NCBI RefSeq assembly: GCF_020564625.1
Contig: NZ_JAJBZT010000007.1
Span: 62,001 to 126,000, forward strand
Length of the DNA: 64,000 nucleotides
Direction: 5' to 3'
From: Leeia speluncae
GTDB lineage: Bacteria; Pseudomonadota; Gammaproteobacteria; Burkholderiales; Leeiaceae
Of the stretch, positions 34,983 to 40,275 are shown piece after piece. The notes beneath the pieces were generated by a model that did no database searches, was not told where the DNA came from, and saw only the letters and a list, made by a program, of their open reading frames with translations. The position numbers and the translations under genes are program-made. How positions within the stretch are numbered: position 1 is the first letter of the stretch; the number at the start of each line of letters is the position of its first letter.

Positions 34983-35065
34983 ATCCAAATGTAGTCTGAA
35001 TCTAGTCCATCAATGCGAGAGGGTTCAGTTACAATTCTATTTTCGAACCTGCTAAAGCAAATGTT

Positions 35066-35860
35066 ATGTATCCACTTATTGCCTCTGATTTAGATGGCAC
35101 GCTACTAGATGAAAATCATCGTATTAATGATTTTACAGCGGACGTACTTAACCAATATTTAGCCTTAAAAACCGAGTTAGTATTAGCTACAGGCCGTCAT
35201 CATCTCGATGTAAGAGGGATAACCGGTAAGCTAAACAAACAACCTTGGTTAATTACCTCTAATGGCGCTACATTGCACAGCCCAAGTGGTGAACTAATGT
35301 TCAAAGCAACGGTTGAAAAATGGATTGTAGAAACCCTGATCAAAGAATTTCACGCGAATGACGCGGTTTGGTTAAATATCTACCATGAAGATGCTTGGCT
35401 AATTAACAAAGAAGCAAAAGGTCTGGAGGAATACCACGCAGAGTCTGGCTTCTTTTATGAAATTCAGGATTTAAGCAAACACACAGGCGATGATGTACTG
35501 AAAGTGTTGCTAGTGGGGGATCATGAGGGATTAAAAGAAATAGAACCTTACCTGCGCTCTAATTTCTCTGATCATGCCCACATTACTTTTTCAGCAGATA
35601 CATGCCTAGAAGTCATGCCCAAATCGACAAGCAAGGGCTCGACACTAAAGCATTTGTTAGCGCACCTAAACATCCACGCGAGTGATTGTATTGCATTTGG
35701 TGATCATCTAAATGATATAGAAATGCTACAAACCGTGGGAACCGCTTGTGTAATGAAAAATGCGACTAAAGGGCTAGTGGATGCTGTGCCCACCGCTAAA
35801 CGCATTGGTTTTCATTATGAGTCAGCCGTGGCTAATCGCTTATTAGATGCTTTGAAATAA
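35066..35860 (+). CDS. Cof-type HAD-superfamily phosphatase
   Basis: The 264-residue protein has HAD motif I as SDLDGTLLDENH at residue 7, motif II as ATGRHH near 43 and motif IV as FGDHLNDIEML near 213, with a C2-type cap between. The ending KSTSKGSTLKHLL and GTACVMKNATKGL is typical of Cof/YbiV/YidA sugar-phosphate or nucleotide phosphatases. The substrate is not predictable. The ATG at 35066 follows a short AAAGCAAA stretch. It converges on trmB across a terminator. Confidence 0.9.
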   Translation: MYPLIASDLDGTLLDENHRINDFTADVLNQYLALKTELVLATGRHHLDVRGITGKLNKQPWLITSNGATLHSPSGELMFKATVEKWIVETLIKEFHANDAVWLNIYHEDAWLINKEAKGLEEYHAESGFFYEIQDLSKHTGDDVLKVLLVGDHEGLKEIEPYLRSNFSDHAHITFSADTCLEVMPKSTSKGSTLKHLLAHLNIHASDCIAFGDHLNDIEMLQTVGTACVMKNATKGLVDAVPTAKRIGFHYESAVANRLLDALK

Positions 35861-36797: not shown

Positions 36798-37838
36798 ATG
36801 ATTAAATCATATTTAAAGTTTTCAGCATGGTTGTTATGTTTTGGATTCTTCTGTATGAGTCCAAGCCATGCTGCAAATTGGTATCCGGTAAAAGTCTTAA
36901 AAGATGGCTTGGCAGAGTCCTACACGCCGATTACCAAAGTAAAAAAGCATTGGCGGGTCTGTGTATTGCTTCCCCATGGAAAAGATAAATATTGGTGGGG
37001 GGTAACGCAGGGTATTGATCAAGATGCAAAACGGTTGAATGTCAACGTTGCCATATTAGAAGCGGGTGGATATGACAAGTTAGATAATCAGCGTAAACAG
37101 TGGTTGCAGTGTGATCAGCAAAATGCAGATGCCTTTGTGATTGCCTCTATTTCACAGCAAGCCTTTGCTAGTGAAATTCAAAAAGCAGTAAAAGAGGGAA
37201 AGCCTGTTATTGATTTAGTGAATGGGATTAACTCGACGGATGTGACATCTCGTTCTGAACTCAGCTTTGCGGATATGGCTTCTGCTGCGGGTAGGTATAT
37301 TCTTAGCGATGCAAAAGGCAAGCCAATCAAGATTGCTTGGTTTCCTGGCCCCAAAGATGCGGGCTGGGTAAAAGATGCTGAAAATGGCATTAATACATTA
37401 TTTGCAAATGCAAACGTGACGGTGATTCATGGTGGTTATGGGCCAACAGATAGATCATCGCAAGCGGGATTGATTCGCCGCTATTTTTCTAGTCATCTTC
37501 CTCCTGATTTTATTTTAGGTAATGCAGTGGCTATTGATGCTGCAGCTAGTTTTATGCGGTTATCTCAAGGGCGGAGTAAGCTGGTTTCTATTTATGCGAC
37601 GAGTGATATTGTGAATTTGATTCGCTCGGGTGACGTAATGGCTGCACCATCGGATTCTCCTGTGATTCAAGGTCGTATTGCACTTGATTTAGCAGTGAGA
37701 GCATTGGAAGGTGAGGTTGTGCCTAAACAAGTTAGCCCAGAAATTATCATGCTAGATCATTTCAATATCAAAAAATTAGATCTATCTAGTCTGTTGCCTA
37801 TTGATGGCCAACGTATGATTTTAAGAGCGTTTAAGTAA
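36798..37838 (+). CDS. TorT-like periplasmic ligand-binding protein
   Basis: The 346-residue precursor has a signal peptide ending SPSHA. The mature protein is a sugar-binding type 1 periplasmic fold closely resembling TorT: NWYPVKV, WRVCVLLPHGKDKYWWGVTQGID, LEAGGYDKLDNQRKQWLQC, ADAFVIASIS, KIAWFPGPKDAGWVKDAENG, and PPDFILGNAVAIDAA. TorT binds TMAO and activates the TorS kinase. No torS, torR or torCAD is in this window, so the ligand and output are open. The next gene, YjdF-like, begins three bases after its stop. Confidence 0.85.
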   Translation: MIKSYLKFSAWLLCFGFFCMSPSHAANWYPVKVLKDGLAESYTPITKVKKHWRVCVLLPHGKDKYWWGVTQGIDQDAKRLNVNVAILEAGGYDKLDNQRKQWLQCDQQNADAFVIASISQQAFASEIQKAVKEGKPVIDLVNGINSTDVTSRSELSFADMASAAGRYILSDAKGKPIKIAWFPGPKDAGWVKDAENGINTLFANANVTVIHGGYGPTDRSSQAGLIRRYFSSHLPPDFILGNAVAIDAAASFMRLSQGRSKLVSIYATSDIVNLIRSGDVMAAPSDSPVIQGRIALDLAVRALEGEVVPKQVSPEIIMLDHFNIKKLDLSSLLPIDGQRMILRAFK

Positions 37839-37841
37839 CCG

Positions 37842-38468
37842 ATGACGCTTAAATCTCCATTAAATCCTAACCAATCCCTGATTATTCTCTCAATAGGATG
37901 GAGCCTAGGTTTAATCCTTAGCTATATGATTGCAGTCGATAAGTTAACTTGGATATTAGAAGTGTTTCCTTGTTTACTAGCACTACCCATTCTCTGGTTC
38001 TATCAGCACAAAATCCGTTTTACTAGTTTTCTATATGGTGTGATTCTTTTGCACGGTTGGATTTTGATGATGGGCGGTGCGTATACCTATGCCAAAGTCC
38101 CACTTGGCTTTGAGATTCAATCTTGGTTTAGTCTTTCTAGAAACCCATACGACAAAATTGGTCACTTTTATCAAGGTTTTGGGCCTGCATTGATCTGTAG
38201 AGAAGTGTTTATCTGCCAATCTATTGTTACAGGTAGAAAAATGGCGAATTTTCTTTGCATATCGGTTGTGATGCTCATTAGTTCATCTTATGAACTGATT
38301 GAATGGGTTGCTGCTCTCATATTAAACCAAGGGGCCGATCAATTTTTAGGCACGCAAGGTGACCCTTGGGATACTCAATCCGATATGGCTTTCGCCTTAT
38401 TTGGCGGGTTGGTCGCTTTATTCTTATTTAGCCGATTACAAGATAAAGCATTATTGAAACGTGCCTAA
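37842..38468 (+). CDS. DUF2238 (YjdF-like) inner-membrane protein
   Basis: The 208-residue protein has about five or six hydrophobic segments and the DUF2238 hallmarks: YDKIGHFYQGFGPALICREVF near residue 107, SSYELIEWVAALI near 150, and LGTQGDPWDTQSDMAFALFGG near 178. Histidines and aspartates inside or beside the helices are conserved in the family, but no function is known. It directly follows the TorT-like gene, so the two are very likely one operon; this could link ligand sensing to a membrane activity. Confidence 0.85.
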   Translation: MTLKSPLNPNQSLIILSIGWSLGLILSYMIAVDKLTWILEVFPCLLALPILWFYQHKIRFTSFLYGVILLHGWILMMGGAYTYAKVPLGFEIQSWFSLSRNPYDKIGHFYQGFGPALICREVFICQSIVTGRKMANFLCISVVMLISSSYELIEWVAALILNQGADQFLGTQGDPWDTQSDMAFALFGGLVALFLFSRLQDKALLKRA

Positions 38469-38560
38469 AACTACATAAAAACTACATTTTGTAATTTTTT
38501 AAGCGTTGCAAGTCTATTTTTATTGTGATTTAAAGTTAAAAACTACATTTTCACTACATT
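38467..38560 (+). promoter_or_regulatory. Two pairs of 11-bp direct repeats (possible OmpR-family operators)
   Basis: Four related 11-mers are present: AAAACTACATA (38467) immediately followed by AAAACTACATT (38478), then AAAACTACATT (38539) immediately followed by TTCACTACATT (38550). Within each pair the period is exactly 11 bp, and the pairs start 72 bp apart. Tandem 11-bp direct repeats are how OmpR/PhoB-type response regulators usually bind, one helical turn apart. The first pair begins at the stop codon of the YjdF-like gene; the second lies 57-79 bases before the pgi ATG. The repeats are seen directly; the regulator is inferred. Confidence 0.6.
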
Positions 38561-38616
38561 GCTTTGTCATTTCCAGCTATTATTTTGTCTGTATCGCTAT
38601 CTTATAAGCCCTATAC

Positions 38617-40275
38617 ATGCAACCAACTATTTTTCATTCCTCTGCTTGGCAAGCGCTAGAAAAACACCAACGCAGTACCGCACAATGGCAAATGCGCGAT
38701 CTATTTTCTACCGACCCAGAGCGTTTTAATCGTTTTTCGATAGAAGCGGCTTGCATCTTGTTGGATTTTTCTAAAAATCGTATTAACCGTGAAACAATTG
38801 CTTTGCTTAGCGACTTGGCATTGGCTGCTGGCTTGCCATTAGAAATGGAAAAAATGCGGCAAGGTGTGCCGATTAATGTGAGTGAAAACCGTGCTGTATT
38901 GCATGTGGCGCTAAGAGAGCAGGGCGATTACCCCTACCAAGTCAACGGTGAACCAATCCTTCCCGGTATTCGAAAAGTACTGCGCCAAATGCGCCGATTC
39001 GTTGATCATGTATTAACAGGAGCTTGGACTGGCTTTACCGATAAAAAAATTACCGATGTCGTAAATATTGGTATTGGTGGATCTGATCTTGGTCCTCGTA
39101 TGGCGGTTGAGGCGTTGCAACCCTATGCGAATACTGGTGTGAAATGTCATTTTCTTTCAAATATCGATCCTGAACATATTCATCAAGTCCTTGCCGGACT
39201 AAACCCGGAAACGACTTTATTTATTGTGGTTTCAAAATCTTTTTCCACGCTAGAAACGCAGTTAAATGCGGTGGCGGCAAGGAAGTGGTTAGTCGATGCC
39301 CTTGGTGATGAAAGTGCGGTGGCAAAACATTTTGTAGGTGTAACGACAAATAAGGCCGCAGCGACTGCATTTGGTATCCAAGTCGATAATTTATTTGAAA
39401 TGTGGGATTGGGTTGGCGGACGGTATTCTGTCTGGTCTGCGGTGGGGTTGATTCTGGCATTTGCGATTGGAATGGATGAGTTCGAAGCATTTTTAGCTGG
39501 CGGCGCTTCGATGGACCAGCATTTTTTCTCTGCGCCAATTGATCAAAACATGCCAATTATTATGGCGTTAATTGGTATTTGGTATAACACCTTTTATAAG
39601 GCTCATACTCACGCTGTGATGCCTTACGTGCAAGGTTTGCAGCGCTTGCCTGCACACTTGCAACAACTAGACATGGAATCAAACGGAAAACGGGCAGGTA
39701 AGCAGGGCGAACCCATCTTATTTGATACTGGTCCTGTGATTTGGGGAGATGTTGGTGTCAATGTGCAGCACGCCTTTTTCCAATTATTGCATCAAGGAAC
39801 TCGATTAGTACCTTGCGATTTTATTGCGACAGTTAACCCTCATTTTGAGGTGAATGCTCATCAAGCGAACTTATTAGCCAACTGCCTTGCGCAAAGTGAA
39901 GCATTAATGAAAGGGAAAACCACGTCAGAAGCCCAGCGTGAAATGTTAAAGGCGGGATTATCTGAACAGCAAATTGAGGCGTTACTGCCGCACAAGGTTT
40001 TCCCTGGTAACCAACCATCTAATACGCTTTTATTAAGAAAGTTAGACCCGAAAACGCTTGGTGCATTATTGGCGCTTTATGAACACAAAGTCTTTGTTCA
40101 AGGTGTGATTTGGGGAATTAACTCTTTTGATCAATGGGGGGTAGAATACGGTAAGCAATTGGCATTAGATATCTTGCCATTGCTCTCTTCTGAAAAAGAA
40201 AAGACAAATGCACATGACCCCTCTACAATGGGATTAATTCAGTATTTCCATCAGCATCGACACTCTATGGAGTAA
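38617..40275 (+). CDS. pgi: Glucose-6-phosphate isomerase
   Basis: The 552-residue protein has the standard PGI layout: INVSENRAVLHVALRE near residue 87, VVNIGIGGSDLGPRM near 147, VVSKSFSTLETQLNA, the family signature in GGRYSVWSAVGL near 268, QLDMESNGK near 350, and KVFVQGVIWGINSFDQWGVEYGK near 490-512. It interconverts glucose-6-phosphate and fructose-6-phosphate. The ATG at 38617 has no strong ribosome site. pncC begins five bases after the stop. Upstream direct repeats may control it. Confidence 0.97.
   Translation: MQPTIFHSSAWQALEKHQRSTAQWQMRDLFSTDPERFNRFSIEAACILLDFSKNRINRETIALLSDLALAAGLPLEMEKMRQGVPINVSENRAVLHVALREQGDYPYQVNGEPILPGIRKVLRQMRRFVDHVLTGAWTGFTDKKITDVVNIGIGGSDLGPRMAVEALQPYANTGVKCHFLSNIDPEHIHQVLAGLNPETTLFIVVSKSFSTLETQLNAVAARKWLVDALGDESAVAKHFVGVTTNKAAATAFGIQVDNLFEMWDWVGGRYSVWSAVGLILAFAIGMDEFEAFLAGGASMDQHFFSAPIDQNMPIIMALIGIWYNTFYKAHTHAVMPYVQGLQRLPAHLQQLDMESNGKRAGKQGEPILFDTGPVIWGDVGVNVQHAFFQLLHQGTRLVPCDFIATVNPHFEVNAHQANLLANCLAQSEALMKGKTTSEAQREMLKAGLSEQQIEALLPHKVFPGNQPSNTLLLRKLDPKTLGALLALYEHKVFVQGVIWGINSFDQWGVEYGKQLALDILPLLSSEKEKTNAHDPSTMGLIQYFHQHRHSME

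Follow-up and report, generated by a model that had tools for sequence, protein, structure and literature searches.

Two pairs of directly repeated ACTACA cores were found in front of pgi, a glucose-6-phosphate isomerase gene of Leeia speluncae, in a window, i.e., the whole stretch of DNA analysed, of 64,000 nucleotides. That these paired repeats are real operators is nearly certain. Judged from sequence comparison, they probably represent a direct-repeat class of operators for a regulator of the HexR/RccR type. Because this regulator would govern the gluconeogenic side of metabolism, the stand-alone pgi would come under its control. A regulator of this type is proposed because the half-site is identical to that of RccR, the KDPG-contact residues are conserved, and several targets are shared.

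The first 11-mer, AAAACTACATA, is located at 38467-38477 of the window. The second, AAAACTACATT, follows at 38478-38488 and occurs again as the third at 38539-38549, and the fourth, TTCACTACATT, is located at 38550-38560. The invariant core of the four is ACTACA, at 38470-38475, 38481-38486, 38542-38547, and 38553-38558. The cores make up two ACTACA-N5-ACTACA pairs, i.e., TGTAGT-N5-TGTAGT on the opposite strand, with starts 72 bp apart between yjdF and pgi. The layout given in the preliminary description, four 11-mers as two head-to-tail pairs in this gap, was confirmed. Operator 1 (38470..38486, + strand) begins one base past the yjdF stop codon (TAA, 38466-38468), which is overlapped by the first 11-mer. 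Operator 2 (38542..38558, + strand) lies 58 bp 5' of the pgi start codon at 38617. Both were exact matches in the whole-genome search. An additional TGTAAT half-site, in everted orientation, is located 3 bp 3' of operator 1 (38490..38495, + strand) and may be a piece of the operator.

The proposed controlled gene, pgi (38617..40275, + strand), is a stand-alone paralogue, and its product scored 792.9 bits on NF001211 against a cut-off of 492. The gene before it, which lies outside the element (37842..38468, + strand), had its best match to NF007369 with 232 bits, below the cut-off of 353, and is called YjdF-like after the preliminary description. A torT gene, which scored above the TorT family cut-off, is found 5' of yjdF at 36798-37838. 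Sigma-70-type promoters were searched in 38200-38800 and none was found.

The repeats were searched in three Leeia genomes, i.e., L. speluncae itself (G000, 3.78 Mb in 48 contigs), L. oryzae (G002), and a third species of the genus (G001), and the reversed pattern was used as the control in pair searches. The single 11-mer, with up to two mismatches, occurred 62 times in the window against an expectation of 55.5, which is no enrichment. Pairs with one mismatch showed no excess in L. speluncae (14 vs. 28 for the control), and seven of nine one-mismatch pair matches of this genome were in long open frames. These counts, and the pgi of G001, which lacks the repeats, speak for functionless products of chance in AT-rich intergenic DNA. 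This explanation is very unlikely, since the paired pairs are kept at pgi of a second species amid diverged sequence, and since the repeats are biased in both their spacing and their intergenic position.

The exact pair was found 5, 1, and 6 times in the whole genomes of L. speluncae, G001, and L. oryzae, respectively, vs. 1, 0, and 2 times for the control. In the search for ACTACA...ACTACA at any gap from 0 to 25, which gave 27 pairs in the three genomes, such pairs were rarer than the reversed control, i.e., 16 vs. 27 in L. speluncae, 3 vs. 25 in G001, and 8 vs. 40 in L. oryzae. A gap of exactly 5 was present in 12 of the 27 (binomial P about 1e-10). The bias was kept when the four pgi sites were left out (8 of 23, P 1.4e-6), and L. 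oryzae by itself shows it too (6 of 8, P 8e-8). All 12 gap-5 pairs were judged to be intergenic, whereas of the 15 with another gap no more than 3 were (L139, L140, and L152; Fisher P 4e-5). In this count, the short or antisense open frames that overlap three gap-5 pairs (L002, L045, and L048) were taken as spurious, and the pairs were counted as intergenic.

Among 300 genomes of the order, 34 had any exact pair, and the highest numbers were those of L. oryzae (6) and L. speluncae (5), with three or fewer in all others. The reversed control had as many as 5 matches in G294 and 4 in G033. The exact pairs are therefore above the control in their own genome, with five vs. one, and rare elsewhere. 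As a separate observation, contig C12 of L. speluncae has three copies of TGTAGTAAGTTACTACA, in one orientation or the other, next to genes that by eye resemble parA/parB (L271-L273). These copies look like a parS centromere site that is unrelated to the ACTACA motif.

In L. oryzae, the protein of pgi is 79% identical, and two exact pairs are placed upstream of the gene, 114 bp apart. The rest of the upstream region has diverged from that of L. speluncae: BLAST of the two upstream regions gave no E value below 0.048, and its two top matches are the repeats themselves. The upstream neighbours in L. oryzae are a divergent Lrp/AsnC-type gene and a two-component system. The pair of pairs thus stays with pgi while the neighbours differ, which agrees with the regulatory element of pgi that had been suggested at first. 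The other role suggested for it, at the end of the torT-yjdF unit, is disfavoured by the same result.

No such pair was found upstream of pgi in G001, also when half-sites were relaxed. The survey of pgi upstream regions covered 80 GTDB loci and 400 bp of each, with less than 400 bp available at L076, L088, and L129, and the pair, exact or relaxed, was found only in L. oryzae. Kept in L. oryzae and absent from this position in G001, the pairs therefore go with pgi in part of the genus. With one close relative sharing the repeats at pgi, and the repeats being rare in other genomes, neither of the two results that the preliminary description named as refuting, i.e., lack of conservation in close relatives or many copies at random positions, was obtained.

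Of exact pairs at other loci, those of L. speluncae precede genes of a dCache-HAMP protein (L001, first 478 residues only), a PAS-MCP chemoreceptor (L005), and a DctP-type TRAP protein (L002). Those of L. oryzae precede sdhC, a PotA-like ABC ATPase gene, a gene of a YdcS-like binding protein, i.e., with a score under its cut-off, and an aldo-keto reductase gene of the L-glyceraldehyde-3-phosphate reductase type. The sole exact pair of G001 precedes aceA, the isocitrate lyase gene. The aceA promoters of L. speluncae and L. oryzae had no pair, relaxed half-sites included.

When the half-site was widened to AYTACA, six more sites were obtained in the three Leeia genomes, for a total of 18 exact and AYTACA-type sites. 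Two AYTACA-type pairs lie upstream of pckG in G001, 114 bp apart. The pckG promoters of L. speluncae and L. oryzae have TGTAAC-N5-TGTAGT, with an ACTACA in inverted orientation 19 bp beyond it. Direct repeats therefore precede pckG in all three species. At the three promoters with double direct repeats, i.e., pgi of L. speluncae, pgi of L. oryzae, and pckG of G001, the spacings are 72, 114, and 114 bp, which differ by 42 bp, or four helical turns of 10.5 bp. Where pckG has the inverted half-sites (L263 and L268), the linker between them, located near the start codon, is partly conserved in the two species, i.e., AAAATA...GTTCCCCC, and may be a promoter or leader element.

Another AYTACA-type pair, TGTAGT-N5-TGTAAT, was found upstream of an L. 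oryzae gene (TIGR00099, 168.3 bits) whose counterpart is encoded in the window. This counterpart is a Cof-type HAD phosphatase gene, YigL-like (35066..35860, + strand; TIGR00099, 169.4 bits, cut-off 137), and its best match was below the YigL equivalog cut-off. A degenerate direct repeat with one mismatch, TGTAGT-N5-TCTAGT (34990..35006, + strand), lies some 60 bp before it, and the gene is a possible second target within the window. Of the other three AYTACA sites, one falls within a gene of L. speluncae (L246), one close to a porin-like gene in G001 (L248), and one close to a phosphatase-like gene in L. oryzae (L250), with names given by eye.

The genes pgi, pckG, aceA, and sdhC fit the KDPG carbon network, but several other pair-bearing genes fall outside it. 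To our knowledge, chemoreceptors, polyamine-type ABC genes, and aldo-keto reductase are not among the targets of HexR or RccR. The transport and chemotaxis genes, being outside the published RccR regulon, would suit a different reader of the direct repeats, e.g., an AraC, Lrp, or another RpiR-type regulator, and the likeness to the RccR half-site would then be chance or convergence. The Lrp/AsnC-type gene divergent from pgi in L. oryzae points the same way. So do two RpiR proteins that L. speluncae and L. oryzae have in common, one of them (L257/L258) encoded next to a gene that by eye is of inositol type and the other being L256/L259. Neither has a match in G001, a genome that largely lacks exact pairs. 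This explanation is rather unlikely. The pckG and aceA genes of G001 carry the repeats, yet the RpiR proteins of G001 are HexR and L252 only, and L252, the orthologue of L251 in L. oryzae, has no orthologue among the L. speluncae matches.

The HexR/RccR-type regulator that is preferred here would be HexR itself. RpiR-type proteins (PF01418) had 3, 2, and 7 matches in L. speluncae, G001, and L. oryzae, respectively, and HexR is the only one found in all three, with 81-91% identity. The gene is placed in a cluster of zwf-pgl-glk-hexR-pgi. In L. speluncae this cluster, on contig C15 (L213, L054), holds the second pgi, with edd in divergent orientation and two HexR-like sites between edd and zwf. 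HexR scored 288 bits on NF008451 (NCBIfam), slightly under the cut-off of 296. The HexR of L. speluncae is 45% identical across 273 residues to RccR of Pseudomonas aeruginosa (chain 8JU9; PMC12713135). All nine residues listed as KDPG contacts of RccR (PMC10810197) are retained in HexR, 9/9 in each of the three species.

A second RccR, i.e., L251 of L. oryzae and L252 of G001, was also considered as the reader and was rejected. The two are orthologues with 75% identity, beside D-amino-acid-type genes (named by eye). No counterpart was present among the L. speluncae matches, and in L251 a leucine replaces the KDPG-contact histidine 148.

Inverted sites of related sequence were found at sugar genes of the same genomes. 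All three species have TGTAR-N5-YTACA palindromes or near variants between edd and zwf. HexR-like palindromes precede gapA in G001 and L. oryzae, a carbohydrate ABC operon in L. speluncae and, twice, in L. oryzae, and aceE, twice, in L. speluncae. By family search, edd, zwf, pgl, glk, and aceE of L. speluncae, gapA of G001, and the ABC binding protein of L. oryzae were confirmed, and the other palindrome genes were named by eye. The palindrome pattern was barely above the control genome-wide, i.e., 15 vs. 11 in L. speluncae and below the control in G001 and L. oryzae, so only the positions of the palindromes count in their favour.

The exact palindrome TGTAGT-N3-ACTACA was absent from all three Leeia genomes, and exact inverted pairs were far below the control, i.e., 10, 0, and 1 vs. 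19, 16, and 20 in L. speluncae, G001, and L. oryzae. The palindromes therefore depend on the variants TGTAGC, TGTAAC, and TGTAGG. These variants are not displayed by the direct repeats, which came from an exact search. Besides the two pckG sites, most of the 11 places of exact inverted pairs in the three genomes are inside open frames, and the long inverted site (N19) is confined to the pckG promoters of two species. Across the whole window, the exact HexR palindrome had no match, and its 11 one-mismatch matches include none at pgi. The spacings of paired palindromes, 130 and 221 bp, are out of phase with the 72 and 114 bp of the direct repeats.

The exact 11-bp period had led the preliminary description to the geometry of OmpR/PhoB-family operators, and this period does fit. 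PhoB (Pho box), WalR (TGTWAH-N5-TGTWAH), and PmrA boxes have the 6-N5-6 layout with an 11-bp period that is typical of the family. A response regulator of the family would then sit on each TGTAGT-N5-TGTAGT pair as a tandem winged-helix dimer. Candidates are available, as PF00486 had 15, 14, and 15 matches in the three Leeia genomes, and in L. oryzae a response-regulator/kinase pair is encoded some 2.2 kb before the pgi pairs. Binding by this family is nevertheless unlikely. All 44 PF00486 matches are more than 2 kb away from the 18 sites, the nearest being that at 2.2 kb from L. oryzae pgi, and autoregulation is thus not indicated. The same half-site is inverted at pckG of two species and, in degenerate form, at sugar genes, and the half-site and several targets agree with RccR. 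The geometry thus stood, whereas the family of the bound protein was not favoured.

For HexR as the regulator, the following mechanism is proposed. The two pairs would be a double operator of pgi, each with two direct TGTAGT half-sites one helical turn, i.e., 11 bp, apart. The ligand of this operator would be HexR from the zwf-pgl-glk-hexR-pgi cluster, an RpiR-family KDPG sensor with helix-turn-helix and SIS domains that is related to RccR. A HexR tetramer or a pair of dimers may bridge the two operators of pgi. RpiR crystal structures are tetrameric, and MurR was proposed to bridge two adjacent sites (PMC12713135), which, as far as these structures go, fits paired operators.

HexR would read inverted 15-bp sites at the sugar-catabolic genes, i.e., edd/zwf, gapA, aceE, and the carbohydrate ABC transporter, and direct-repeat 17-bp sites at genes of gluconeogenesis, the glyoxylate pathway, and the TCA cycle, i.e., pgi, pckG, aceA, and sdhC. 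When sugars are available, KDPG would rise and HexR would leave the palindromes of the catabolic genes. With KDPG, it would stay on, or move to, the direct-repeat operators of pgi, pckG, and aceA, as RccR does at its long site. The stand-alone pgi would then be repressed along with gluconeogenesis, and the pgi of the hexR cluster would serve glucose use. This sign of the KDPG effect at direct repeats is taken by analogy with RccR and could be the reverse.

A more tentative extension is that one HexR does the work of both HexR and RccR, with 15-bp inverted sites, 17-bp direct sites, and the 31-bp inverted site of pckG, and with opposite effects of KDPG. If KDPG acted oppositely according to geometry, the direct repeat would be a new operator class for RpiR regulators. 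If the reading is right, an RpiR-family metabolic repressor would be able to use one half-site in both direct and inverted repeats. The reading would also give a reason for the two pgi genes in the genus, one going with glucose catabolism in the hexR cluster and the other switched with gluconeogenesis. Natural operators with one half-site and differing geometry are a ready set for asking how the layout decides in which direction a metabolite acts.

RccR of Pseudomonas fluorescens is a KDPG-sensing RpiR-family repressor that binds TGTAGT/ACTACA as 15-bp and 28-bp pseudo-palindromes (PMC5489143). It controls pckA, gap, aceE, aceA, glcB, and pntAA, among eight published targets, and two 15-bp sites lie 68 bp apart in the aceE promoter (PMC5489143). 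KDPG raises the affinity of RccR for the long aceA site and lowers that for the short aceE site (PMC5489143). The four exact half-sites of the window are identical to the RccR half-site, and the two systems also share a variable linker, two sites in one promoter (aceE in Pseudomonas), intergenic positions, and overlapping targets, i.e., pckA/pckG, aceA, aceE, and gap. Unlike the RccR sites, the half-sites at Leeia pgi are direct with N5 and not inverted, pgi is absent from the eight published targets, and the Leeia candidate is the HexR of the zwf cluster.

It had been stated at first that the motif matched no operator consensus that could be named. For the half-site this does not hold, as it is the TGTAGT/ACTACA of RccR (PMC5489143). 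For the direct-repeat geometry it holds within the literature searched. The term "direct repeat" is absent from the main text of PMC5489143, PMC10810197, and PMC12713135, two papers on RccR and one on NanR, where operators are palindromic or pseudo-palindromic. In the literature searched, judged by titles and abstract openings, no direct-repeat site of HexR, RccR, or RpiR was found. HexR motifs that differ in sequence and structure in some gammaproteobacteria were reported by Leyn et al. 2011, according to PMC5343134, so an earlier description of a direct-repeat HexR motif is possible. As far as these papers show, the half-site and the regulator family are known, and the direct-repeat order is apparently undescribed in the literature searched.

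The pgi pairs resemble OmpR/PhoB operators in the two direct 6-mers with an 11-bp period, and they differ in that no response-regulator gene stands beside the pairs, the logic of the targets is another, and the Leeia half-site is also used inverted. With the HexR operators, i.e., TGTAR-N5-YTACA as at Leeia edd-zwf, the pairs differ in order, since those operators are inverted and have more variable half-sites, while the TGTAR half-site, the central carbon targets, and the genomes themselves are common to both.
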